From assembly GCA_000769715.1 (NCBI GenBank), contig JROS01000055.1, positions 51,547 to 115,546 of the forward strand: a DNA stretch of 64,000 nucleotides. The letters are read 5' to 3'. The position numbers and the translations under genes are program-made. This document shows, piece after piece, positions 33,704-48,387 of the stretch. Source of the stretch: Desulfobulbus sp. Tol-SR. GTDB lineage: Bacteria; Desulfobacterota; Desulfobulbia; Desulfobulbales; Desulfocapsaceae. Below the pieces are notes generated by a model, which saw only the letters and a list, made by a program, of their open reading frames with translations, ran no database searches and was not told the origin of the DNA. How positions within the stretch are numbered: the first letter of the stretch is position 1; each line of letters begins with the position of its first letter.

Positions 33704-34609
33704 TCAACCGCGCAGTTCCCGGGGCTGCATCAGGTTCTCCTCCATGTGTTTCAGCTCCTCGATGCCCGAGATGATGATCTCCGGGTCGGGGCGCAGTTCC
33801 TCTTCCGCCAGCCTGTCCCGGTAGTCCATGTTGCTGAGGACGAATTTCATGCAGTTGAGCCGGGCCTGTTTCTTGTTGTCGGAACGGACGATGGTCCAGG
33901 GGGCGATGGTACGGTTGGTCTCCGACAGCATCTGAAACTTGCGCACGGAATACTGGTCCCAGTATTTCTGGGCGAGATTGTCGATCGGCGATAGTTTGTA
34001 CTGCTTCAGGAGGTCGGTCTTGCGGCACTCGAACCGTTCCTTCTGCACTTCCTTGGAAACAGAAAAATAGAACTTGAACAGCTTGATGCCGTTTTTGACC
34101 AGCATCTCCTCGAACATCGGCACATCCTTGAGAAAGCGTTTGTTCTGTTCGTCGGTGCAGAAGCCCATCACCGGTTCGACCATCGCCCGGTTGTACCAGC
34201 TGCGGTCGAACAGGACGATCTCCCCGGCCGAGGGCAGGTGGGCGATGTAGCGCTGGAAATACCACTGGGTCATCTCGGTTTCGTTCGGTTTGGTCAGGGC
34301 CACCACCCGGGCGTTGCGGGGGTTGAGGTGTTCGGTGAAACGTTTGATGGTCCCTCCCTTGCCGGCGGCATCCCGCCCCTCGAAGATGGCGAGGACCTTG
34401 TCGCCGTTTTCCTTCATCGTCAGCTGCAGCTTCATCAGCTCGATCTGCAGTTTCTTCAGTTCCTTCTCATACTCGATCTGGCTCCTGCTGACCCATACCG
34501 CGATCTTGTCTTCGCCCTTCTTGCCGTCGCTATTCTTGTAGGCGGTTCCTTCGGCGAGTCTGATGTTTTCATCCTCAGCTTTTTCCTGTTTCTTTGCTTT
34601 CTTGGCCAT
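33704..34609 (-). CDS. ppk2: Polyphosphate kinase 2 family protein
   Basis: 301 residues from ATG 34609; a longer frame adds 39 residues without PPK2 resemblance. One PPK2 domain: Walker A in FEGRDAAGKGGTIKRF, the lid/Walker B in VLFDRSWYNRAMVEP. A Lys-rich N-terminal extension (AKKAKKQEKAEDE) precedes it. Class-I PPK2 uses polyphosphate to phosphorylate NDP (or the reverse), linking polyphosphate to nucleotide pools. GGAGG lies 12 bases before the start, rather far. Together with the CHAD and SixA genes 5-8 kb away it hints at polyphosphate storage in this organism. Confidence 0.92.
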   Translation of the reverse strand: MAKKAKKQEKAEDENIRLAEGTAYKNSDGKKGEDKIAVWVSRSQIEYEKELKKLQIELMKLQLTMKENGDKVLAIFEGRDAAGKGGTIKRFTEHLNPRNARVVALTKPNETEMTQWYFQRYIAHLPSAGEIVLFDRSWYNRAMVEPVMGFCTDEQNKRFLKDVPMFEEMLVKNGIKLFKFYFSVSKEVQKERFECRKTDLLKQYKLSPIDNLAQKYWDQYSVRKFQMLSETNRTIAPWTIVRSDNKKQARLNCMKFVLSNMDYRDRLAEEELRPDPEIIISGIEELKHMEENLMQPRELRG

Positions 34610-34730
34610 GGTGCCTGGTATCCTCCGGTTCAGGTTGTGCTTGAGTCGATCGGGGTTGGGTGCCGACGTGGTCGGGTAGGGCGCGGTATCGTTGCTACGG
34701 TAGCAGATTTCCGGCGGAAAGTGCAATTAC

Positions 34731-35471
34731 TCAATTGAGTTTTCTTCCCTCCCGGTACATCCTGGCGTAAATCTCCGGGAGCCGACAGCCGGCCAGGGCC
34801 CTGATCACCGTCTCGATGTCGTAGGCGATGCGGAAATGCTCGACCTCGACCGCATCGGCGGACAGGCGGAGCACGGCGCAGCTGACCCGCGGATCGCCGT
34901 CGAACATCCGGCCGGCCGAGCCGGGGTTGATGAAGTGGATGCCGGCGATCAGCTTGTGGTAGGGGGTATGGGAATGACCGGTGACGATGATCTCGGAACG
35001 GCTGGCGGCGGCGAGTTCGGCAAAGCGCTCGTTCGGGGTATCGGCAAAGAGGAACTCGTGCGGTTCGGCCGGGCTGCCGTGGTGGAGGCCCACCGTCCGG
35101 CCGACCGGCCCGCTATCCCCCACGGCCAACTGCAGGTCGAGATACGCCGGCATGGCGAACAGGTCGTTACGGCCTTCCTCGTCGAGCTGGCCGGCGGTCG
35201 AGGTGTACATGATCCGCTTGTCGATATTCCGCGGCTTGTTGAGCGGTTTTCCCTGCAGCAGGCGGATGACCTTTTTGTCGGTATTGCCGAGGATCGAGAT
35301 CGCCTGATGCTGTCTGAGCCAGCGCAGGGTCTCGGAGGGAAAGGGGGCGTAGACGACGGAATCGCCGCCGTTGAGGATCAGGTCGAAATGCTCGTCGGCG
35401 AAGAATTGTTCGATCGCCGCCAGGGCCGGGAAATTGCCATGAATGTCCGAGAGCAGCAGGATGTTGAGCAT
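34731..35471 (-). CDS. Metallophosphoesterase (YfcE/MJ0936-like)
   Basis: 246 residues from ATG 35471. Dimetal motifs are LLSDIHGNFPA, LNGGDSVVY, ILGNTDK, LHHGSP and VTGHSHTPY, the pattern of Mre11-like calcineurin phosphoesterases in the YfcE group, which act on small phosphodiesters. Substrate unknown. A longer frame to 35534 adds an unlikely N-terminus. The gene is upstream of ppk2 on the same strand (122 bp apart) and may be co-transcribed. Confidence 0.87.
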   Translation of the reverse strand: MLNILLLSDIHGNFPALAAIEQFFADEHFDLILNGGDSVVYAPFPSETLRWLRQHQAISILGNTDKKVIRLLQGKPLNKPRNIDKRIMYTSTAGQLDEEGRNDLFAMPAYLDLQLAVGDSGPVGRTVGLHHGSPAEPHEFLFADTPNERFAELAAASRSEIIVTGHSHTPYHKLIAGIHFINPGSAGRMFDGDPRVSCAVLRLSADAVEVEHFRIAYDIETVIRALAGCRLPEIYARMYREGRKLN

Positions 35472-35724
35472 ATGGCCGTAACTGTCGTGGGGAAAGGCGA
35501 TGGAGGGGAGCGGACCATGGTGGCGGCCGATCATTCGTCAGACACCGCCACCTGCCAGACTATCAGCTCGGGTCTTCCAGGGCAACCGGAAATCCCGAGA
35601 ATCTTCGGCCGTTGTGCCTGCCGGGAGCACCTTGAGGTTTTGCATCCGTTCATTTCATGCTACCCTGGTTGCCGAGGCGTACAGACCGGTACGCGACATC
35701 AAATTCAGGGAAAAGGAGACCGGA

Positions 35725-38157: not shown

Positions 38158-38470
38158 AAGGAAAAAAACACCGTGTCGGGAATCGTCGTTTGATGATGGG
38201 CCATGCCGCCGCACCGGAATCGAGGGGTAGTAATACTGTCTTTTTTCCGGAACGCAGCGATCGGCGGCTCCGGAAGGGAGCATACTGCCAGCCCATTTTA
38301 TACTAGCATAGGCAGGGATAGCGGTGGTAGATTATTATGAATATTATTTTCCGAGCGGGGGCAGGCGCCGCTTTCGGAGGGTCGGAGGAGGCCGGTCTGG
38401 GTAGACCGTCGTGCGGCCAGGGGGACCGTGCATGCCGGAAGAGGGAGATTTTTTTTGAATGGAAGGTTGC
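38158..38470. other. Divergent intergenic region, 313 bp, cls/argJ
   Basis: An AT-rich island at about 38296-38353 has -10-like hexamers on both strands (TATACT at 38299-38304 on plus, TATAAA at 38302-38297 on minus) but no matching -35 boxes. Nothing else recognisable. Confidence 0.4.
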
Positions 38471-39658
38471 ATGGGTGTCAAAGGTTTTTCCACCTCCGCT
38501 GTCGCGGCCGGCATCAGGTACGCCGATCGGCTTGACCTCGGACTGATTTTCAGCGATACGCCGGCAGTCACCGCCGGGGTATTCACCACCAACCAGATCA
38601 AGGCGGCGCCGGTACTGATCGATGTCGAACGCCTGAAACAGGGACGAGCGCAGGCGATCCTCGTCAACAGCGGCTGCGCCAATGCCTGCACCGGCGAGCA
38701 GGGCATGGAGAATGCCCGCCATGCCGGCATGCTGGTTTCGCAAGCGCTGAACATCCAGGATGTCCTGGTCCAGCTGGCCTCGACCGGGGTGATCGGCGAA
38801 CAGCTGAACGTCACGGCCATCGAGAACAGCGTCGATCAGCTCGTTGCCGGGCTGTCGCCCGACAATTTCGAACAGGTGGCTCGAGCGATCATGACCACCG
38901 ATACGGTCCCGAAGACGGTCTGCCGCACGATCAATATTGGCGGCAAGGATGTCAATATTGCCGGGATGGCGAAGGGCTCGGGGATGATCATGCCGAATAT
39001 GGCGACCATGCTCGCCTTTGTCCTGACCGATGTCCAGATCAGTTTTCCCGAACTCCACGCCGCCCTCGTCAGCGGTGTCGCGAGTACCTTCAACCGCATC
39101 ACCGTCGATGGCGATACCAGCACCAACGACATGGCCCTGGTGATGGCCAACGGTTGTGCCGGCAACCCCTGGATCGACGAGGATGCCCCGCAGCAGGACC
39201 GGCAGCTCTTCCGCGATACCCTTGAAGAGGTACTGAAGGAACTGGCCCTGATGATCGTCACCGATGGCGAGGGGGCGACCAAGACCATCACCATCCGGGT
39301 CTGCGGGGCGAAAGAAAACGAGGAGGCCGAGCGTCTGGCCAGGACCATCGCCAATTCCAGCCTGGTGAAAACCGCCTTTTTCGGGGAGGATGCCAACTGG
39401 GGCCGGATCATCGCCGCCATGGGACGTTCGGGCGTGCGATTCAATCCGGACAAGGTCGACATCGCCTTCAACGACGTGCTGATCGTCAAGAACGGCCAGG
39501 GCCTCGGCAAGGAAGCCGAGTCTGCCGCCACCCGGGTGCTCAAGGAGAAAAATTTCGCCGTGTGCGTCGACCTCAAGGACGGGGCGGGCTGCGAAGAGAT
39601 TTACACCTGTGATTTTTCTGTCGATTATGTGAAGATCAACGCCAACTACCGGTCCTGA
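38471..39658 (+). CDS. argJ: Glutamate N-acetyltransferase / ArgJ
   Basis: 395 residues from ATG 38471; an in-frame ATG at 38459 is possible, but GGAAGG just before 38471 favours the shorter form. ArgJ is an Ntn-like hydrolase that self-cleaves before Thr in KGSGMIMPNMATMLAF. It transfers acetyl from N-acetylornithine to glutamate; bifunctional forms also use acetyl-CoA. This completes the cyclic arginine pathway. First gene of a run with the CHAD, ParA, SixA and MFS genes (12 bp to the CHAD gene). Confidence 0.96.
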   Translation: MGVKGFSTSAVAAGIRYADRLDLGLIFSDTPAVTAGVFTTNQIKAAPVLIDVERLKQGRAQAILVNSGCANACTGEQGMENARHAGMLVSQALNIQDVLVQLASTGVIGEQLNVTAIENSVDQLVAGLSPDNFEQVARAIMTTDTVPKTVCRTINIGGKDVNIAGMAKGSGMIMPNMATMLAFVLTDVQISFPELHAALVSGVASTFNRITVDGDTSTNDMALVMANGCAGNPWIDEDAPQQDRQLFRDTLEEVLKELALMIVTDGEGATKTITIRVCGAKENEEAERLARTIANSSLVKTAFFGEDANWGRIIAAMGRSGVRFNPDKVDIAFNDVLIVKNGQGLGKEAESAATRVLKEKNFAVCVDLKDGAGCEEIYTCDFSVDYVKINANYRS

Positions 39659-39670
39659 CGGCCGCTGCCG

Positions 39671-41263
39671 ATGATCGAACAGGCCCCCGCCTCCATCTTC
39701 CTCGTCGGTGCTGATTTTGATGCCGCCGCCATCGCTTTTCGCCTCGGTGGCGACTGCGCCGTCAGAGAGGTGGAGATCGATGAAGGGAAGGAGGAATTCC
39801 TCGACACCTTCGAATGGGGACTGTACCGGTCAGACCTGGCGCTGGCCCGCAGGGGACAGCGGTATCGGCTGTATGCGGCGGATGGGACGGTGCTGGGGGA
39901 AGGGAAGGGGCCGCGCAGAAAAAGGCCGTTCCGGTGGGATTTTCCCGACGGCCCGATTCGCGACGGGATCAGCGAAGGGGCCGATATCCGCGCCCTCTGT
40001 CCGAAACTGCAGTTGTCCAGGGTTCGCCGGTCGTTTCATCTCCTCAACGAAGACGAGAAAACCGTTCTCAGGCTGTGGCTCGACCACGTTGTCGTCAACG
40101 GCGACAATCGGGGACCGGTCACGCAGACGCAGCTGCATCTGGTCGGAGTCCGCGGCTATGACCACGAATATCAGGCTGTCCGTAGTCTGCTTGAGGAAGA
40201 TGGACTGGAGCAGCCGACCGACCGGACGCACTTCCTGGCCCCGGTCCTCTCGGGGGCGGGTATCACCATTGGTGCCGCCGGCTCGAAGACGGTTGTGATC
40301 CTCGAGCGGGATATCTCCATGCGGGACGGTCTGCGCCAGGTGGGGCTGGCCGTGTTCGGCGACATCCGGAGAAACCTGCCGGGGACGATCGACGACATCG
40401 ATACCGAATTTCTCCATGACCTGAGGATATCGCTGCGTCGCACCCGTTCGCTGCTGTCGATCTTGGCCAGGGCCCTCCCCGGTGTTCATTGTGATCATTT
40501 CCGCTCCGAGTTCCGGTGGATCACCCAGGCGACCGGCAAGGTCCGTGACTGCGATGTCTATCTGCTGAAGGAGGAAGAGTACCGCAGCATGCTGCCGGTC
40601 AGCCTCCATCCCGGGCTTGCCGGTTTTGTCCGGGGAATGCGGGCGTTCAGGAACAAAGAATTCAGGGCGATGAAAAAACAACTGAAATCGCCGCGGCTGG
40701 TGCGTCTGCTCAAGGAATGGCAGCATTTTCTGGAAAATCTGCCCCAGCCGGCCGACTCGACGGAGCAGGACCGTCCGTGCCGGGGTTTTGCCGCCAGGGC
40801 GGTAAAGAAACGATTCAGGAAGGTCCTGCTGGAGGGTGAAAAACTGGGTCCCGACAGCCCCGACACCATGCTTCACGCCCTGCGGATCGAGGCGAAAAAA
40901 CTGCGCTATCTCCTCGAATTCTTTTACTCGCTGTTCCCTGCGGAGGAGGTTGGCCTGCTGGTCAAGCACCTGAAGAAACTGCAGAACAATCTCGGAGACT
41001 ACAACGATCTGGCCGTGCAGCAGGCGATGCTCGGAACCTTTCGCAGCCCTGGCCGGGTCGATGACCCGAAACAGGTCCTGGCCATTGCCGCCGCCCTTGG
41101 CGGCCTGGTGACCCGGATCGCCGAACGGCAGCAGCAGGTTCGCGGTGAGTTCGAGGCCACCTTCGCCGATTTTGCCGGCGACGACAACAGGGAACTGGTG
41201 CGCAGGATCACCGCAACCGCAGGCGATGGCCAACTCTCCGCAGGACATGGTGCCCGGCAATGA
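39671..41263 (+). CDS. CHAD-domain protein with diverged CYTH-like N-terminus
   Basis: 530 residues. Residues ~30-190 resemble a CYTH-like barrel (FEWGLYRSDLALARRG, RRSFHLL) but lack the ExExK signature, so no catalysis is expected. Residues ~210-515 are a CHAD domain with its two conserved His motifs, FLHDLRISLRRTR (H249) and MLHALRIEAKKLRYLL (~H402), plus many Arg/Lys. CHAD domains bind inorganic polyphosphate and some localise to polyphosphate granules. The stop overlaps the ParA start (ATGA), which argues strongly for a shared function with that ATPase. Confidence 0.88.
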   Translation: MIEQAPASIFLVGADFDAAAIAFRLGGDCAVREVEIDEGKEEFLDTFEWGLYRSDLALARRGQRYRLYAADGTVLGEGKGPRRKRPFRWDFPDGPIRDGISEGADIRALCPKLQLSRVRRSFHLLNEDEKTVLRLWLDHVVVNGDNRGPVTQTQLHLVGVRGYDHEYQAVRSLLEEDGLEQPTDRTHFLAPVLSGAGITIGAAGSKTVVILERDISMRDGLRQVGLAVFGDIRRNLPGTIDDIDTEFLHDLRISLRRTRSLLSILARALPGVHCDHFRSEFRWITQATGKVRDCDVYLLKEEEYRSMLPVSLHPGLAGFVRGMRAFRNKEFRAMKKQLKSPRLVRLLKEWQHFLENLPQPADSTEQDRPCRGFAARAVKKRFRKVLLEGEKLGPDSPDTMLHALRIEAKKLRYLLEFFYSLFPAEEVGLLVKHLKKLQNNLGDYNDLAVQQAMLGTFRSPGRVDDPKQVLAIAAALGGLVTRIAERQQQVRGEFEATFADFAGDDNRELVRRITATAGDGQLSAGHGARQ

Positions 41264-42006
41264 AAACAGTGGCTATCTACAGCAGCAAGGGCGGGGTGGG
41301 CAAGACCGCCACCGCCGTCAACCTCGCCTACACCGCTTCCATGTCCGGGCAGCGGACCCTGCTCTGCGACATGGACTCGCAGGGGGCGGCTTCGTACTAT
41401 TTCCGGATCAAGGCGAAGAAGAAATTCAACAGCGAGAGACTGCTCGATGGCGATATCGCGAAGAATATCCGGGGGACGGATTTTATTCACCTTGACCTGC
41501 TGCCGGCACATTTTTCCTTCCGCAACCTTGATCTCGCCCTGAACGAATTCAGCAAAAAAAAACGGCGGCAGGCCCTGGTCAGACTTTTTGCCCCCTTAGC
41601 CGAGGACTATGAAATCCTCATCCTCGATTGCCCTCCGAATCTGACCCTGCTCTCGGAGAACATCATCGAGGCGGCCGATGTCCTCATCTGTCCGGTCATT
41701 CCCACCACGCTGTCGCTGATCGCCCTGGAGCAACTGCTCAAGCTGTTCACCAAACTCGGTGCCGACAAGGACAAGATCCTCGCCTTTTTCTCCATGGTCG
41801 AACGGCGGAAGTCCATGCACCTGGCGACCATGGAGAAGTACAGCAAATATCAGTTGTTTTTAAAGACCTCGATCCCCTTTCTGGCCGAGATCGAAAAAAT
41901 GGGCATCCTCCGCCAGCCGGTCGGGGCGGCGGCTCGACAGTCACCGGCCGCCCGGCAGTACGAAAAACTGTGGCAGGAAGTGATACAACGGAGCGAACCG
42001 GCATGA
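41260..42006 (+). CDS. ParA/Soj-family ATPase
   Basis: 248 residues. Deviant Walker A SKGGVGKTATAVNLA carries the signature Lys; Walker A' is LLCDMDSQGAAS and Walker B ILILDCPPN. There is no N-terminal HTH, so it is the small chromosomal/cargo-positioning type. No parB and no centromere-like repeats lie nearby. Such ATPases form gradients on the nucleoid to move DNA, carboxysomes or other cargo. It is coupled by ATGA to both the CHAD gene before it and the sixA gene after it, suggesting CHAD-bound cargo, possibly polyphosphate granules. Confidence 0.92.
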   Translation: MKTVAIYSSKGGVGKTATAVNLAYTASMSGQRTLLCDMDSQGAASYYFRIKAKKKFNSERLLDGDIAKNIRGTDFIHLDLLPAHFSFRNLDLALNEFSKKKRRQALVRLFAPLAEDYEILILDCPPNLTLLSENIIEAADVLICPVIPTTLSLIALEQLLKLFTKLGADKDKILAFFSMVERRKSMHLATMEKYSKYQLFLKTSIPFLAEIEKMGILRQPVGAAARQSPAARQYEKLWQEVIQRSEPA

Positions 42007-42506
42007 GAAGGCTGTATCTGATCCGTCATGCCAAATCGAGTTGGGCGGAGGCGGGGCTGGACGATTTTGACCGGCCGCTGAACCACCGCGGCAAGGCCGA
42101 CGCCCCCTTCATGGGGCGGAGACTGTCCGGCCACGGGGTACGCCCCGACCTCATTGTCGCCAGTCCGGCGAAAAGGGCCAGGAAGACGGCCCGCATCATC
42201 GCCGAGGCGCTTGGATTCGCGGAGAAATCGATTCACCTTGATTCGGCGCTGTACATGGCCGAGGTGCCGGCCCTGCTCGAGACCATCGCCGGGGTACCGG
42301 ACAGCACCGAGGAACTGGCCCTCGTCGGTCACAACTACGGCATCACCGACCTCGCCGAATGGCTGACCGGGCGGAGCATCGGCAATATCCCCACCTGCGG
42401 CGCCGTCGGCATCGAATTCGACTGCCGGTCATGGTCAGAGCTCAAGGAAGGCTCCGGCCGCCTGCTGTTCTTCGACTACCCCAAAAAACATTCCGGCCGC
42501 GAATAA
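42003..42506 (+). CDS. sixA: SixA-like phosphohistidine phosphatase
   Basis: 167 residues. Histidine phosphatase (RHG) motif LIRHAKSSWAE at the N-terminus and the second His in ALVGHNYGITD. SixA dephosphorylates phosphohistidine on proteins such as ArcB HPt or the NPr arm of the nitrogen phosphotransfer system. The start overlaps the ParA stop (ATGA), and the stop overlaps the MFS start (TAATG). SixA genes are often next to CHAD genes, but the shared substrate is not known. Confidence 0.92.
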   Translation: MRRLYLIRHAKSSWAEAGLDDFDRPLNHRGKADAPFMGRRLSGHGVRPDLIVASPAKRARKTARIIAEALGFAEKSIHLDSALYMAEVPALLETIAGVPDSTEELALVGHNYGITDLAEWLTGRSIGNIPTCGAVGIEFDCRSWSELKEGSGRLLFFDYPKKHSGRE

Positions 42507-43735
42507 TGACGGCCGGCACGCAGGCCATGGCAGACGGCGGATACCTGCCGTTCCGACGGGTACTGCCGCAGCTGGCACTCCTGTCGTCGCTCTTTCTGCT
42601 CAATTTTCTCTCCCGCATCATCTTTGCACCGCTGCTGCCGCAGATCGAGCAGGAACTCGGCTTCGGCCATACGGTGTCGGGCTCCTTTTTTCTGTGGATT
42701 TCCGTTGGTTATTTCCCCTCGGTGCTGACCTCCGGGTTTGTCTCGGCGCGCATCACCTTCAAACGGACAATCGTCCTGTCCACCCTCGCCGCCGGCTGTG
42801 TCCTCGTCATGCTGGCCCATTGCCGGACCATGACCGGCATCCGTGCCGCCCTGTTCGGGCTCGGCCTCGCCTCCGGTCTCTACCTGCCGGCGGGACTGTC
42901 GACGATCACCGGGATGGTGGCACCGACTTTCTGGGGGCGGGGCATCGCCGTCCACGAACTGGCGCCGAATATCGGTTTCATCATTGCGCCGCTGATCTGC
43001 GGGGTGATGGTGCGGTGGTCGACCTGGCGCCACGGGATCGAGGGCATCGGTGTCGGCCTGATCGTCATGGCGGTGCTGTACGGTCTGAAGGGGCGGGGCG
43101 GCAGGGATCGGGGGGTGCCTCCCGATCTCGCGGTCTTTCGCGTCTTTCTGGCCATGCCGCAGTTTTGGCTGATGATCCTGCTGTTTTCCCTGGCCATCTG
43201 CTCGACCATGGGGATCTATGCGATGCTGCCGTTGCTGCTGGTCACCGGCCAGGGGATGGATGGCGACAGCGCCAACCGTCTCCTCTCGCTGTCGCGGTTC
43301 TGCACGATCATCATGCCGGTCCCGGCCGGCTGGCTCGGCGATCGCTACGGCAACCGGCGGGTGATGGTGGCGGCCCTGCTGCTCGCCGGCCTGCTGACGA
43401 TCCCGCTCGGCCTCCTGTCCGGCGGCCCTCTGCTCGCCGCGGTCTTTCTCCAGCCGCTGGTCGCCGTCTGTTTCTTCCCCTCGGCCTTCGCCGTCCTCAG
43501 CACGCTGGGGGGAAAGAAGCTGGGGGCGGCGGCGGTTTCCCTCTCCATCCCGATGGCGTTTCTGGTCGGCGGCGGAGTCATGCCGACCCTGATCGGCGGC
43601 ATCGGCGATCACTTCGACCTCGGCGCCGGTTTTGTCGTGGCCGGCCTGGCGATGACTGTTGCCGCCGTCCTGGCCGCGGTTATCCTGCGGCGGGAGGCGA
43701 GGGCGAGGGGTGCGGAGCATGATCCGCGGTCATAA
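42506..43735 (+). CDS. MFS transporter
   Basis: 409 residues with about twelve TM helices. The cytoplasmic loop motif is diverged; loop 8-9 reads GWLGDRYGNRRVM, the MFS signature. The substrate cannot be told. The ATG at 42506 overlaps the sixA stop (TAATG), making it the last gene of the argJ-CHAD-ParA-SixA-MFS run. A longer frame that extends into sixA is not real. Confidence 0.88.
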   Translation: MTAGTQAMADGGYLPFRRVLPQLALLSSLFLLNFLSRIIFAPLLPQIEQELGFGHTVSGSFFLWISVGYFPSVLTSGFVSARITFKRTIVLSTLAAGCVLVMLAHCRTMTGIRAALFGLGLASGLYLPAGLSTITGMVAPTFWGRGIAVHELAPNIGFIIAPLICGVMVRWSTWRHGIEGIGVGLIVMAVLYGLKGRGGRDRGVPPDLAVFRVFLAMPQFWLMILLFSLAICSTMGIYAMLPLLLVTGQGMDGDSANRLLSLSRFCTIIMPVPAGWLGDRYGNRRVMVAALLLAGLLTIPLGLLSGGPLLAAVFLQPLVAVCFFPSAFAVLSTLGGKKLGAAAVSLSIPMAFLVGGGVMPTLIGGIGDHFDLGAGFVVAGLAMTVAAVLAAVILRREARARGAEHDPRS

Positions 43736-43881: not shown

Positions 43882-44874
43882 GTGTCTGAAACGGAAAACA
43901 ACGCCACGTCCAGCCGCAGCGACTTGATCCGGGACGTATTTCTCTCCCTGCTGCGGGAAACGGCGCTCACCAGCTGGGAGCTGATCAAGATCACCGTGCC
44001 GGTGGTGATCATCACCAAGGTCCTCGAGGAACTGGGGATGATCACCTGGCTCGGCTACCTGCTCGAACCGGTGATGGGCCTGGTCGGATTGCCCGGCTCC
44101 CTCGGCCTGGTCTGGGCGATGGCGATGCTGACCAGCATCTACGGCGGCATGGCGGTCTTCGCCGCCCTGGCGCCCGGCCTGGCGCTGACCGGGGCGCAGG
44201 TGACGATCCTCTGCTCGATGATGCTGATCGCCCACACCCTGCCGCTGGAGTTGAGCATCAGCAAAAAGGCCGGGGCGGCAGTGCTGCCGATTGCCGTCCT
44301 GCGGGTCGGCGGGGCGGTCCTCTACGCCGTCCTGCTCGACCGGCTCTGCCGGTGGCTGGACCTGTGGCAGGGACCGGCCCGGCTGCTGTTCAAGACCGGC
44401 GAGATCGAACGCGACCTCGGCGGCTGGGCCCTTGATCAGATCATCAACCTCGGCATGATCATTTTGGTGATCTTTGCTATCATGGTCTGCATGCGCCTCC
44501 TCCGGGCGATCGGCGTCCTGGCGCTGTTCGAGCGCCTGCTCGGCCCGGTGCTGCCGGTGTTCGGCATGAGCCGGCAGGCGGCGCCGCTCACCGTCGTCGG
44601 CATGGTCATGGGGCTCAGCTACGGCGGCGCCCTGATCATCCGCGAGGCCTGTTCGGGCAAGCTCGATCGCCGGGAGATCTTCTATTCGATGGCCCTGATG
44701 GGGATCTGCCACTCCCTGGTCGAGGACACCCTGCTGATGCTGGCGCTCGGCGGCCGGTTCGGCGGCATATTTTGGGGGAGGATTCTCTTTTCTCTTGGTA
44801 TAGTGTTCGGTATTGTCCGCCTGGCCCGCTACATTGAACAACGAAGGACAAGGATCCCGACAGGAACGGCCTGA
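43882..44874 (+). CDS. Nucleoside recognition (Gate) domain membrane protein
   Basis: 330 residues with two Gate-type halves. The first contains KITVPVVIITKVLEELG and GLVWAMAMLTSIYGGMAV, the second GVLALFERLLGPVLPVFGMS and GMVMGLSYGGALI, as in SpmA/SpmB-type and Fe/nucleoside-transport Gate proteins. The substrate is unknown. Start is GTG 43882 with AAGGGG upstream. It precedes avtA by 31 bp. Confidence 0.85.
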   Translation: MSETENNATSSRSDLIRDVFLSLLRETALTSWELIKITVPVVIITKVLEELGMITWLGYLLEPVMGLVGLPGSLGLVWAMAMLTSIYGGMAVFAALAPGLALTGAQVTILCSMMLIAHTLPLELSISKKAGAAVLPIAVLRVGGAVLYAVLLDRLCRWLDLWQGPARLLFKTGEIERDLGGWALDQIINLGMIILVIFAIMVCMRLLRAIGVLALFERLLGPVLPVFGMSRQAAPLTVVGMVMGLSYGGALIIREACSGKLDRREIFYSMALMGICHSLVEDTLLMLALGGRFGGIFWGRILFSLGIVFGIVRLARYIEQRRTRIPTGTA

Positions 44875-44905
44875 ATGGCGGAACAGGCTGCTGTCTCACA
44901 CTGCT

Positions 44906-46171
44906 ATGCGCTTTTCGAAATTTGGTCAACGATTGACCTGCGACGCCGGCATCCTCTCGCTGATGGACGATCTGGGGGCGGCCCGCAGCGAATACGAAGG
45001 GGAAATGATGATGATGGGCGGCGGCAATCCCGGTCATGTCCCCGAATTCCAGGAACTGCTCCGCCGCAACCTCCAGGAGATCTGCGGCGACCCTGCGGCC
45101 TTCCGGGAACTGGTCGGGGCCTACAGTCCGCCCCAGGGCGATGCGGCATTCATCGAGGTCCTCGCCGACCTGCTGTCCCGGCACTGCGGCTGGCCGGTCG
45201 GACCGGACAACATCTGCCTCACCAACGGCAGCCAGACCGCCTTCTTCATGCTGTTCAACCTCCTGGCCGGCGTTTGTCCCGACGGCAGCTGCAGGAAGAT
45301 CTGCCTGCCGCTGGCCCCTGAATATATCGGCTATGCCGATCTCGGTCTGTGCGACGATTTCTTCGTCGCCACCAAACCGAAAATCGAGCGGATCGGCGAC
45401 GATATGTTCAAGTACCATATCGACTTCGACGCCCTCGAGATCACCCCTGATATCGGCGCCATCTGCGTTTCGCGCCCGACCAATCCGAGCGGCAACGTCA
45501 TCACCGACAGTGAGGTCCAGGCCCTCGACCGCCTGGCCCGGAGGCATGGCGTGCCGCTGATCATCGACAACGCCTACGGCCTGCCCTTCCCGGGGATGGT
45601 CTATGCCGAGGCCGCCCCGTTCTGGAACGACAACACCGTGGTCTGCCTGTCGCTGTCCAAGCTCGGGCTGCCGGCGGTCCGGACCGGCATTATCGTCGCC
45701 CGGCCGGAGATCGTCCGCGCCCTGGCCAGCATGAATGCCATCATGTCGCTGTCGCCGGGCAGCTTCGGCGCCATGGTGACGAGGAAACTGTTTGCCTCCG
45801 GCGAGGTGGTCGATCTCAGCCGCAACCTGATCGGCCCCTTTTACCGCCGCAAGATGGAAAAGGCGGTGGCGGCGGTTCGCCGGGAATGCGCCGGTCTGCC
45901 CTATCGGATCCACAGGCCGGAGGGGGCGATGTTTCTGTGGCTGTGGTTCGAGGGGCTGCCGCTGTCGAGCCTCGACTTCTACCGCCGATTGAAGCGCCGG
46001 GGCGCCCTGGTGGTATCCGGGCATTATTTCTTCCCGGGGTTGAAGGAGGAGTGGCGGCATCGGCAGGAATGTGTTCGGGTAACCTATTCCCAGAACGACG
46101 AGGATGTGGCCAACGGCATCGCCATCATCGGCCGCGAGGCCGGAAAGGCGTATGCCGGTTCGGGTCAATAG
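44906..46171 (+). CDS. avtA: Valine-pyruvate aminotransferase
   Basis: 421 residues from ATG 44906, which gives the family's N-terminus RFSKFGQRLTCDAGILSLMD. The PLP-Lys lies in SLSKLGLPAVRTG; other fold-I landmarks are SRPTNPSGNV and IIDNAYGLPF. AvtA converts 2-oxoisovalerate and alanine to valine and pyruvate. No Shine-Dalgarno is obvious. It follows the Gate-domain gene and precedes the MORN gene by 36 bp. Confidence 0.93.
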   Translation: MRFSKFGQRLTCDAGILSLMDDLGAARSEYEGEMMMMGGGNPGHVPEFQELLRRNLQEICGDPAAFRELVGAYSPPQGDAAFIEVLADLLSRHCGWPVGPDNICLTNGSQTAFFMLFNLLAGVCPDGSCRKICLPLAPEYIGYADLGLCDDFFVATKPKIERIGDDMFKYHIDFDALEITPDIGAICVSRPTNPSGNVITDSEVQALDRLARRHGVPLIIDNAYGLPFPGMVYAEAAPFWNDNTVVCLSLSKLGLPAVRTGIIVARPEIVRALASMNAIMSLSPGSFGAMVTRKLFASGEVVDLSRNLIGPFYRRKMEKAVAAVRRECAGLPYRIHRPEGAMFLWLWFEGLPLSSLDFYRRLKRRGALVVSGHYFFPGLKEEWRHRQECVRVTYSQNDEDVANGIAIIGREAGKAYAGSGQ

Positions 46172-46207
46172 TTAATTCGCCGTATATTTCCGGAGGTCTG
46201 TCGATCT

Positions 46208-47977
46208 ATGAAACATCCTGCAGTGCATATCTGTCTTGTGCTCCTGGCGATCCTGTCGGCACCGTCCCTGGTTGCCGCCGACTGCCTCGAAGGGGACTGT
46301 CGGAACGGCAAGGGGGTCTTCGTCCACAAGGACGGCCGGCGTTACCAGGGAGAATTCAAGAATGGCGTCATCAGTGGCACCGGTACACTGACCCTGCCCA
46401 ATGGGGTTGAGTACAGCGGGCAGTTCCGCAACGGCCGGCTCTACGGTGTCGGTCGGATGACCGGCCCGAAAGGATTGAGCTACGAGGGGGAATTCCGGGA
46501 CAACCTCTTCCATGGCAAGGGGACACTGGTTGGTGGTGATGGCCTGCAGTACATGGGTGAATTCGACAGCGGCCGCTATCATGGAGAAGGCATCCTGTTC
46601 TACCCCGACGGTCGGGAATACAAGGGAAGGTTCCTGAACAACACCGTCGATGGTCATGGCAAGCTCACTTACCCGGACGGCACCTGGTACGAGGGGGAGT
46701 TCCGTAACGGCAAGCCCGAGGGGCGAGGCACCCGCAAATATATTGACGGCGGATCGTATACCGGCGATTTCCGCGGCTCGGTCCGCCATGGCTTCGGGGT
46801 CTATACCGCCGCCAATGGCGAGGAGTTCGAGGGAGGCTTCAGCGAGGACAAGCCGCATGGCGAGGGCATCAAACGCTATCCCGGCGGGGGCACGTACAAG
46901 GGGACGTTCAAGGATGGATTGCGGTACGGCAAGGGAAAGATGGACTACGCCGATGGATCCTGGTATGAAGGCGAGTTTGTCGAGGACCGGGAAGAGGGCC
47001 GGGGCATTCGCGAATATGCCGACGGCAGCCGCTACGAAGGCGAATTCTCCCACGGCAAGCGTCACGGCAAAGGCCGATTGACCCTCGCCGACGGCGGCGT
47101 CTACAAAGGGGAGTTCGCGGGTGACGTCATGCATGGGGAAGGGTCCATCCGCTATGCCGACGGCCGCAAATATCAGGGAGCCTTCCTCAACGGTAAACCG
47201 GCCCCCCAATCCGAACCGTCACCGGCGCCGGCGGTTATGACCGGCAACGACGATGAAGTCCCTGACTGGCTGTTGAAGCCTGAGGAAGAGGTGGCGGACG
47301 AAGACCCTGATGCGACTGCAGCCGCCGGCGGTGGTGCCGGTCAGCCCGATGCCTATCGCTTCGAGGATGGCAGGATTGTTGTCGCCGCAAGCGGCCGCGC
47401 GGCCAACGGCAAGGTGCAGGTGGTCTTCCCGGATGGCCGTGTCTACGAGGGAATGGCCAGGGATGGGCGCATGGACGGGAAAGGGGCGTTGCTGCTCCCC
47501 GGCGGTGATACCTACAAGGGCGGTTTCTCGCAGGGAAAGTTCGAGGGCAGGGGGGTCTACCGCTATGCCGATGGTCGCGAATATGATGGAATCTTCCGTG
47601 CCGGGTTGAAGGAGGGGAAAGGAACGTTCTCCTATACCGATGGGACCAAATATGTCGGCCAGTTCAAGGCCGATCTGTTTTCAGGCAAAGGGGAATACAG
47701 TTTTGCCGACGGCAGTCATTACAGCGGCGAATTTGCCGGCGGCGAGTTCAACGGCAGGGGGAAACTGCGCTATCTGGATGGATCGGTGTACCAGGGCGAT
47801 TTCAAGGATGACCTGCCGGATGGAGAAGGGGTGCTGGTCGGCAAGGACGGCAGCCGCTACGAGGGAGAATTCCGGCGCGGCAAGCGCAATGGGCAGGGGC
47901 GTCTGGAGTTGAAAACAGGCAAGATCTACGAAGGGTTGTTCGACAACAACCGATTTATCGGTTCGAGAAAGTCATAA
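46208..47977 (+). CDS. Exported MORN-repeat protein (21 units)
   Basis: 589 residues. A signal peptide (VHICLVLLAILSAPSLVAAD) is followed by 13 consecutive 23-residue MORN units (YxGxF-x6-GxG pattern), a Pro/Glu/Asp-rich linker (~335-385) and 8 further units. MORN arrays form long beta-hairpin sheets that act as scaffolds or bind lipid/peptide partners. As a secreted or periplasmic scaffold its partner is unknown. The gene lies between avtA and the DUF4177 gene; no SD of standard spacing except GGAGG 11 bases before ATG. Confidence 0.92.
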   Translation: MKHPAVHICLVLLAILSAPSLVAADCLEGDCRNGKGVFVHKDGRRYQGEFKNGVISGTGTLTLPNGVEYSGQFRNGRLYGVGRMTGPKGLSYEGEFRDNLFHGKGTLVGGDGLQYMGEFDSGRYHGEGILFYPDGREYKGRFLNNTVDGHGKLTYPDGTWYEGEFRNGKPEGRGTRKYIDGGSYTGDFRGSVRHGFGVYTAANGEEFEGGFSEDKPHGEGIKRYPGGGTYKGTFKDGLRYGKGKMDYADGSWYEGEFVEDREEGRGIREYADGSRYEGEFSHGKRHGKGRLTLADGGVYKGEFAGDVMHGEGSIRYADGRKYQGAFLNGKPAPQSEPSPAPAVMTGNDDEVPDWLLKPEEEVADEDPDATAAAGGGAGQPDAYRFEDGRIVVAASGRAANGKVQVVFPDGRVYEGMARDGRMDGKGALLLPGGDTYKGGFSQGKFEGRGVYRYADGREYDGIFRAGLKEGKGTFSYTDGTKYVGQFKADLFSGKGEYSFADGSHYSGEFAGGEFNGRGKLRYLDGSVYQGDFKDDLPDGEGVLVGKDGSRYEGEFRRGKRNGQGRLELKTGKIYEGLFDNNRFIGSRKS

Positions 47978-47979
47978 GC

Positions 47980-48387
47980 ATGAATGAGGTAGAAACGAGG
48001 ATGCGCTGGAGCTATAAAACCGTTTTATACGAGTTGAAAAAGGAAGGGCTGCTCGGCAACGCCTTCCTGGATGAGTCGGAAATCGAGCTGTCGCTCAACG
48101 AGTTCGGGGCGGCGGGGTGGGAATTGATTTCGATGATCGAGACCCGCGACGGCATTATCGCCGTGTTCAAACAGCCGTTGGGCCGGATTCCGGTCCAACC
48201 CGAGATCGATGAAGAGCAGGAAGAGCGAGTGGCGAGGCCGCCGTTGCACTCGCCGCCGTTGCAGCCGTCGCCTCCGGTGATTCGGGAGAGAATCGTTCCC
48301 CCTGTCCGGCCGGTCGTCAAGACCAATGCTGAACCGGAGCAGGAGCGGGAAACGCAGTACTCGATCGGCTCGATTCGAATCGAATAG
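47980..48387 (+). CDS. DUF4177 domain protein
   Basis: 135 residues. The first ~60 (WSYKTVLYELKKEG ... FGAAGWELISMIE ... IAVFKQPL) match the small DUF4177 fold of unknown function. The C-terminal half is Pro/Glu-rich and probably disordered. It starts 2 bp after the MORN gene, so the two are co-translated. No signal peptide is seen. Confidence 0.85.
   Translation: MNEVETRMRWSYKTVLYELKKEGLLGNAFLDESEIELSLNEFGAAGWELISMIETRDGIIAVFKQPLGRIPVQPEIDEEQEERVARPPLHSPPLQPSPPVIRERIVPPVRPVVKTNAEPEQERETQYSIGSIRIE

Follow-up and report, generated by a model that had tools for sequence, protein, structure and literature searches.

A conserved CHAD-ParA gene pair as a possible polyphosphate-granule positioning system

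Introduction

What might a ParA-family ATPase do when its gene is coupled to that of a CHAD protein? The question is raised by a 64,000-nucleotide (nt) stretch of contig JROS01000055.1 from Desulfobulbus sp. Tol-SR (hereafter, the window), in which a gene for a long CHAD protein overlaps a gene for a ParA/MinD-family ATPase, and the latter overlaps a gene for a SixA-like histidine phosphatase. The original prediction for this locus, made from the sequence alone, proposed that the three form a module in which CHAD serves as the adaptor linking ParA to polyphosphate granules. Little is settled about the placement of polyphosphate granules in bacteria, and CHAD proteins have no defined physiological role other than the binding of polyphosphate. 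Organelle positioning was reviewed in 2025; that review explains granule placement by AlgP nucleoid tethering and by a coupling to chromosome segregation, and CHAD does not figure in it.

The supposition that a ParA-CHAD pair had not been described turned out to be half right. The same adjacency, together with ppk1, is in print for Acidithiobacillus as a folD-ppk-parA-CHAD neighborhood (2019, PMC6416229; 2024, PMC10892726). In the available portions of these papers, ParA is read as a partition protein and the genes are given as a neighborhood only; the open-license literature on the Acidithiobacillus pair, within those portions, offers no positioning hypothesis. We give an even chance to the hypothesis that CHAD-ParA is a cargo-positioning system, in which CHAD on the granule surface stimulates nucleoid-held ParA, thereby spacing polyphosphate granules and partitioning them. 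If true, ParA-CHAD would provide a mechanism of granule placement, a cargo for a large ParB-less ParA clade and a function for the long type of CHAD protein.

Results

A long CHAD gene is translationally coupled to a ParA gene

The CHAD gene occupies 39671-41263 of the forward strand (ATG at 39671, TGA at 41261-41263) and encodes 530 amino acids (aa) with a Pfam CHAD match (PF05235, 2e-57). The ParA gene follows on the same strand at 41260-42006 (ATG at 41260, stop at 42004-42006; 248 aa; AAA_31/ParA, 3e-34), and then the SixA-like gene at 42003-42506, also forward (ATG at 42003, TAA at 42504-42506; 167 aa; His_Phos_1, 1.4e-13). The coordinates of the three open reading frames (ORFs) bear out the frames and pairwise ATGA overlaps of the original prediction, with CHAD and ParA overlapping at 41260 and ParA and the SixA-like gene at 42003. 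Its assignment of a CHAD protein and of a ParA with a deviant Walker A motif (KGGVGKT) likewise held. For the SixA-like gene, a TTG start giving a longer ORF (41628-42506) was rejected, and the ATG at 42003 was taken.

We surveyed 194 genomes of the order, finding long CHAD by protein search and the relatives of this ParA with a ParA-clade profile (hereafter, clade ParA). Long CHAD was present at 95 loci in 91 genomes and clade ParA in 92 genomes. A clade ParA lay within 450 bp of 83 of the 95 long-CHAD loci, on the same strand and downstream every time. Both genes were found in 85 genomes, CHAD only in 6, ParA only in 7 and neither in 96 (Fisher p ~1e-38, ignoring phylogeny). Distances among the CHAD proteins and among the ParA proteins correlate (r 0.67; maximum 0.18 in 2000 permutations), a correlation that shared ancestry predicts too.

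In a sample of 297 genomes of the phylum, the ParA clade is set off by a score gap, with its lowest member at 257.9 bits and the next ParA at 135.1 bits, and 12 of its 14 members adjoin CHAD. The pairing depends on the type of CHAD: a clade ParA accompanies 12/15 long CHADs (frames >500 aa, loci of the L165/L164 type included) and 0/19 CHAD-only proteins.

The pair is found well beyond the phylum. From a wide survey with one genome per species (84,980 species) we analyzed the best 80 clade-ParA loci, which are therefore not an unbiased bacterial sample; taxonomy was assigned by record title, and gene calling is unreliable in a few very GC-rich loci (e.g., L163 and L183). Clade ParAs occur in Gamma-, Alpha- and Betaproteobacteria, Desulfobacterota, Acidobacteriota, Actinomycetota, Chloroflexota, Gemmatimonadota and Calditrichota. 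Long CHAD lies directly upstream of clade ParA at 61 of the 80 loci, spanning seven phyla, with a median spacing of -4; the genes overlap at 46 of these loci, by exactly 4 nt (ATGA) at 38. At locus L133, CHAD is 5 kb from ParA in a ParA-CYTH/ppk1-ppx/CHAD cluster. In 17 genomes ParA is unlinked or at a contig edge; CHAD is encoded elsewhere in 16 of them, with a frame >500 aa in 12, and the sole genome without it is a 1.9 Mb record. The pair is also carried by the culturable Methylotuvimicrobium buryatense 5G (L065). No natural CHAD-ParA fusion was found among the 80 loci. Separately, the ParA frame of Fodinicola feengrottensis (L141:6001-7440) extends to ~480 aa, a possible C-terminal fusion.

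The CHAD-ParA pairing is thus real, ancient and specific. The search of CHAD neighborhoods proposed with the original prediction gave a coupled ParA both in the order and in seven phyla, and restriction of the pair to a single strain is ruled out.

The CHAD protein retains the residues that bind polyphosphate in a homolog

The CHAD protein comprises a degenerate TTM/CYTH-like N-terminal domain (~1-205), the CHAD domain (229-454) and C-terminal helices. Its nearest solved structures are those of the phosin CtCHAD from Chlorobium tepidum, free and polyphosphate-bound (6qv7 and 6qva; E 8e-49). Our structural model (predicted local distance difference test, pLDDT, 92) best matches 6qva over its C-terminal part, with a TM-score of 0.91 by target length, and its N-terminal domain gives a weak fold match to TTM enzymes.

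Mutating His253, Arg256, Arg260, Arg296 or Arg418/Tyr419 lowered polyphosphate binding by CtCHAD, according to the available portion of PMC6537752. By alignment, the counterparts are H249, R252, R256, R292, R412 and Y413, so that all six tested residues are present here, and they are invariant in 59/59 ParA-linked CHADs. The ExExK tripolyphosphatase motif of TTM/CYTH proteins is absent from the first 40 residues in the same 59/59. Because the TTM resemblance is weak and ExExK is absent, this CHAD is most likely a binding protein rather than an enzyme, and we propose it as a polyphosphate-granule adaptor. In contrast to CtCHAD, for which the available portion of PMC6537752 mentions no ParA, it is coupled to a dedicated one.

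ParA keeps its ATPase site and has a rebuilt ParB pocket

The KGGVGKT motif and D37, D39 and D123 are invariant in 54 ParAs, D37 and D39 being catalytic. The ParA model (pLDDT 93.8) finds Soj/ParA structures as its top fold matches, and the protein scores nearer to Soj/ParA than to McdA. We compared the pocket residue by residue with Myxococcus xanthus ParA (8ray) in these 54 sequences. In M. xanthus ParA, a hydrophobic ParB pocket includes L155, L187 and L192, and Y81/E82 form an Arg-binding site. L155 is replaced by Glu (Glu133) in 54/54. Most sequences have a charged residue or Gly in place of L187, L192 has no counterpart, and the Y81/E82 equivalents are mostly Lys or Arg. As the ParB pocket is rebuilt, the partner of this ParA is probably not ParB. 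The equivalent of Bacillus subtilis R189, mapped by spacing, is R183, which is kept in 53/54.

The protein shares with Soj/ParA of ParABS systems the fold of the ATPase, the catalytic Asp residues, a deviant Walker A and one of the two canonical DNA-binding Arg residues; it differs in that the ParB pocket is replaced, the second DNA-binding Arg is mostly acidic, and ParB and parS were not found. Allowing up to 3 mismatches, no parS-like site is present in the window; the locus has no centromere-like repeat, only short chance repeats. ParB_N gave no match above the cut-off in the Tol-SR draft genome (about 90% complete), and none on this contig, in agreement with the original prediction that parB and parS-like repeats are missing here.

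Arg49 of ParA tracks the presence of long CHAD

Arg49 (codon at 41404-41406, forward strand) is found in 93/93 ParAs encoded beside a long CHAD, in 13/13 with a long CHAD elsewhere in the genome (contig-edge locus L079 left out) and in 4/11 without a long CHAD. D74 and G72 show a similar pattern, and the equivalent of residue 49 in M. xanthus ParA is Gly. The position is just past Motif 2, in whose vicinity MinE and other regulators are believed to act. The residues around Arg49 are thus a candidate CHAD contact patch.

The genomic context is polyphosphate metabolism

Within the order, PPK1 is encoded no more than 3 kb from 12 CHAD loci, mostly divergently from CHAD-ParA. Within ~6 kb of the 80 wide-survey loci, we found PPK1 at 6, PPK2 at 6, CYTH at 4 and SixA at 12, and the gene order at L138 is PPK2-CHAD-ParA-PPK1-PPX. 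In a Pfam census of 129 neighbor genes chosen regardless of function, His_Phos_1 was matched 8 times, PPK1 5, PPK2 4, PhoR 3 and CYTH 3; four PLDc_2 matches are probably the PPK1 proteins themselves. The context of CHAD-ParA is polyphosphate metabolism.

The phosphatase fared less well than its two neighbors. Its histidine phosphatase domain stands, whereas the NCBIfam SixA equivalog model gives 56.0 bits, under the 74.5 cut-off, so the protein is SixA-like only. A core role was rejected, given that SixA is absent from most loci outside the order; it is a frequent yet optional neighbor and not, as had been predicted, part of the module.

Discussion

A possible granule-positioning system

In McdA-McdB, a ParA-family ATPase and a cargo-bound protein are encoded together and spread intracellular bodies, the carboxysomes. 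The conserved, translationally coupled CHAD gene gives this ParA a comparable partner gene, with CHAD in the putative role of cargo-binding adaptor. Unlike in McdA-McdB, the cargo here would be polyphosphate, and the adaptor a folded protein with TTM-like and CHAD domains instead of an McdB-like one. The analysis establishes that the two genes are coupled and conserved in a polyphosphate context, that CHAD has the polyphosphate residues, and that ParA combines an intact ATPase site with a rebuilt ParB pocket.

Contact, stimulation, matrix and granule movement are what we infer. CHAD, having lost its N-terminal catalytic motif, would coat polyphosphate through a conserved basic pore, as seen in its homolog. 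ATP-bound ParA would sit as a dimer on some matrix in the cell; the nucleoid is the likeliest one, although only half of the DNA-binding residues are conserved. Granule-borne CHAD would contact the clade-specific ParA surface around Arg49 and residues 71-75, and this contact would trigger ATP hydrolysis and ParA release. The resulting ParA depletion zone would drive granules apart, over the cell and into both daughters, much as McdA-McdB does with carboxysomes. SixA, PPK1, PPK2, CYTH and PPX would be the metabolic surroundings, outside the machine itself. The fuller claim, that a dedicated ParA/MinD-family machine in at least seven phyla spaces and partitions granules via a CHAD adaptor and a new adaptor-binding surface near Arg49 and 71-75, falls slightly short of even odds in our estimate.

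Several observations weigh against granule positioning by CHAD-ParA. The equivalent of M. xanthus R238, which is required there for DNA binding, is Asp or Glu in 34/54 ParAs; a comparative study found DNA-binding sites to be poorly conserved between ParA family members. Loss of Arg49 may partly mirror general divergence: ParAs lacking a CHAD have diverged further overall, and relatives do not count as independent cases. Ralstonia showed no apparent phenotype when CHAD genes were deleted, as stated in the available portion of PMC6537752. The pair also comes apart in both directions. Five genomes of one genus keep clade ParA without CHAD of any kind; PPK2 is present in these five and no PPK1 was found in them. 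In two of the five, ParA is seen to keep its place between argJ and MFS. At L170:4064-4798 and L171:4294-5028 the order is this argJ-ParA-MFS, with CHAD gone from its usual place and from the genome, and the gap in L170 holds no convincing CHAD remnant. The most divergent clade ParAs (L175:4507-5262 and L176:4111-4839) are in genomes without CHAD. Second-copy clade ParAs at L178:4430-5023 and L179:3989-4585 have no CHAD and immediately follow a second PPK1; both frames are shortened at the start by gene calling, and residue 49 there reads Gln. Conversely, genomes G011, G066, G158 and G170 have kept a CHAD with no ParA next to it. The rebuilt ParB pocket and the specific pairing are in line with the predicted adaptor role, but CHAD is not an obligate adaptor, since ParA persists without CHAD and CHAD without ParA. 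In view of the ParA-only and PPK1-linked loci, the constant theme of this ParA may be polyphosphate, with CHAD its usual rather than its sole partner.

As a separate observation, the surroundings of L175 and L176 look like a GAK-type cassette: they encode Amphi-Trp small proteins, an HPr-kinase-like protein and a RimK-like ATP-grasp protein.

Alternative explanations

The main rival, to which we assign roughly one chance in four's worth of belief, is that ParA is an ATP-driven switch of polyphosphate metabolism. By recruiting CHAD, PPK1 or PPK2 to the granule or releasing them from it, ParA would set where or when polyphosphate is made. The two paralogs beside a second PPK1, the persistence of ParA with PPK2 in CHAD-less genomes, the loss of one canonical DNA-binding Arg and the frequency of polyphosphate enzymes among the commonest neighbors all suit such a switch. 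The most constant partner, however, is not a kinase; it is CHAD, a protein that is not known to be an enzyme and has lost the TTM motif, and at most adjacent CHAD-ParA loci there is no kinase in the vicinity.

A static or cell-cycle tether between polyphosphate and the nucleoid, like AlgP or PhaF and without ATP-driven spacing, appears unlikely. AlgP of Pseudomonas aeruginosa spaces granules by nucleoid tethering, and even granule spacing is also the outcome that we propose for CHAD-ParA. Helix-hairpin-helix and Lys-rich small proteins encoded after ParA at three loci (L078, L082 and L164) would fit a tether as well. AlgP itself resembles histone H1 and tethers with no ATPase involved. Against a tether, the catalytic residues of ParA are invariant, and a passive tether would have no use for them.

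It is very improbable that CHAD and ParA are neighbors by operon hitch-hiking, with no common function. Within the order, the unit does lie between argJ and MFS genes, whose functions are unrelated, but the survey contradicts this explanation: in seven phyla, and amid differing surroundings, the genes show the same order and the same ATGA overlap, and the two genes co-occur even when unlinked. Weakest of all, and close to negligible, is the reading that this ParA partitions a chromosome or plasmid together with a ParB encoded elsewhere, which the ParA/Soj fold would allow but which is contradicted by the ParB and parS searches of the draft genome and window, by the unconserved ParB pocket, and by the separate, lower-scoring ParA that many relatives in the phylum sample hold too. 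Several of those relatives have a second ParA, whereas the Tol-SR draft genome shows no second close ParA; its lack of both this and ParB probably reflects assembly gaps.

Neighboring genes and other features

Upstream of CHAD, argJ (38459-39658, forward; Pfam ArgJ, 3e-147) ends 12 bp before the CHAD start. It is a kept upstream neighbor of CHAD in the order, by synteny, and is not part of the mechanism. Downstream, an MFS transporter gene (42506-43735, forward; MFS_1, 5e-31) starts within the stop codon of the SixA-like gene, with a 1-nt overlap (TAATG) at 42506; an MFS gene follows SixA or ParA in several relatives. PADLOC defense annotation gave zero matches for the CHAD, ParA and SixA-like proteins.

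The PPK2 polyphosphate kinase ORF (33704-34726; PPK2, 1.2e-94) probably has an internal true start and is adjoined by a metallophosphoesterase gene (34731-35534; Metallophos_2, 8e-17), both on the reverse strand. The predicted distance of ~5 kb from the CHAD-ParA genes is right; membership of PPK2 in the operon was rejected, as it forms a separate transcription unit on the other strand. A block of CHAD, metallophosphoesterase and PPK2 recurs in other families (L159 and L160). The Tol-SR genome has one CHAD gene and several PPK2 matches; its PPK1 gene shares the contig with CHAD and lies ~61 kb upstream of it.

The small helix-hairpin-helix proteins with a long Lys-rich tail are encoded downstream of ParA at L078:6707-7054, L082:6330-6689 and L164:4414-4812, in Gammaproteobacteria and one same-phylum relative. 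At L164, a CYTH gene and a short ORF precede the gene; at L078 and L082, a PstS-like gene is next after it. These proteins could be nucleoid tethers of the AlgP or PhaH kind.

Farther downstream, the window encodes a membrane protein (43882), an aminotransferase-like protein (44813) and a 135-aa protein (47980). Their counterparts in the order adjoin a second ParA-SixA copy at L177, and the region 43882-48387 is therefore an old syntenic block. Within it, a long ORF at 46208-47977 consists of many glycine-rich MORN-like repeats.

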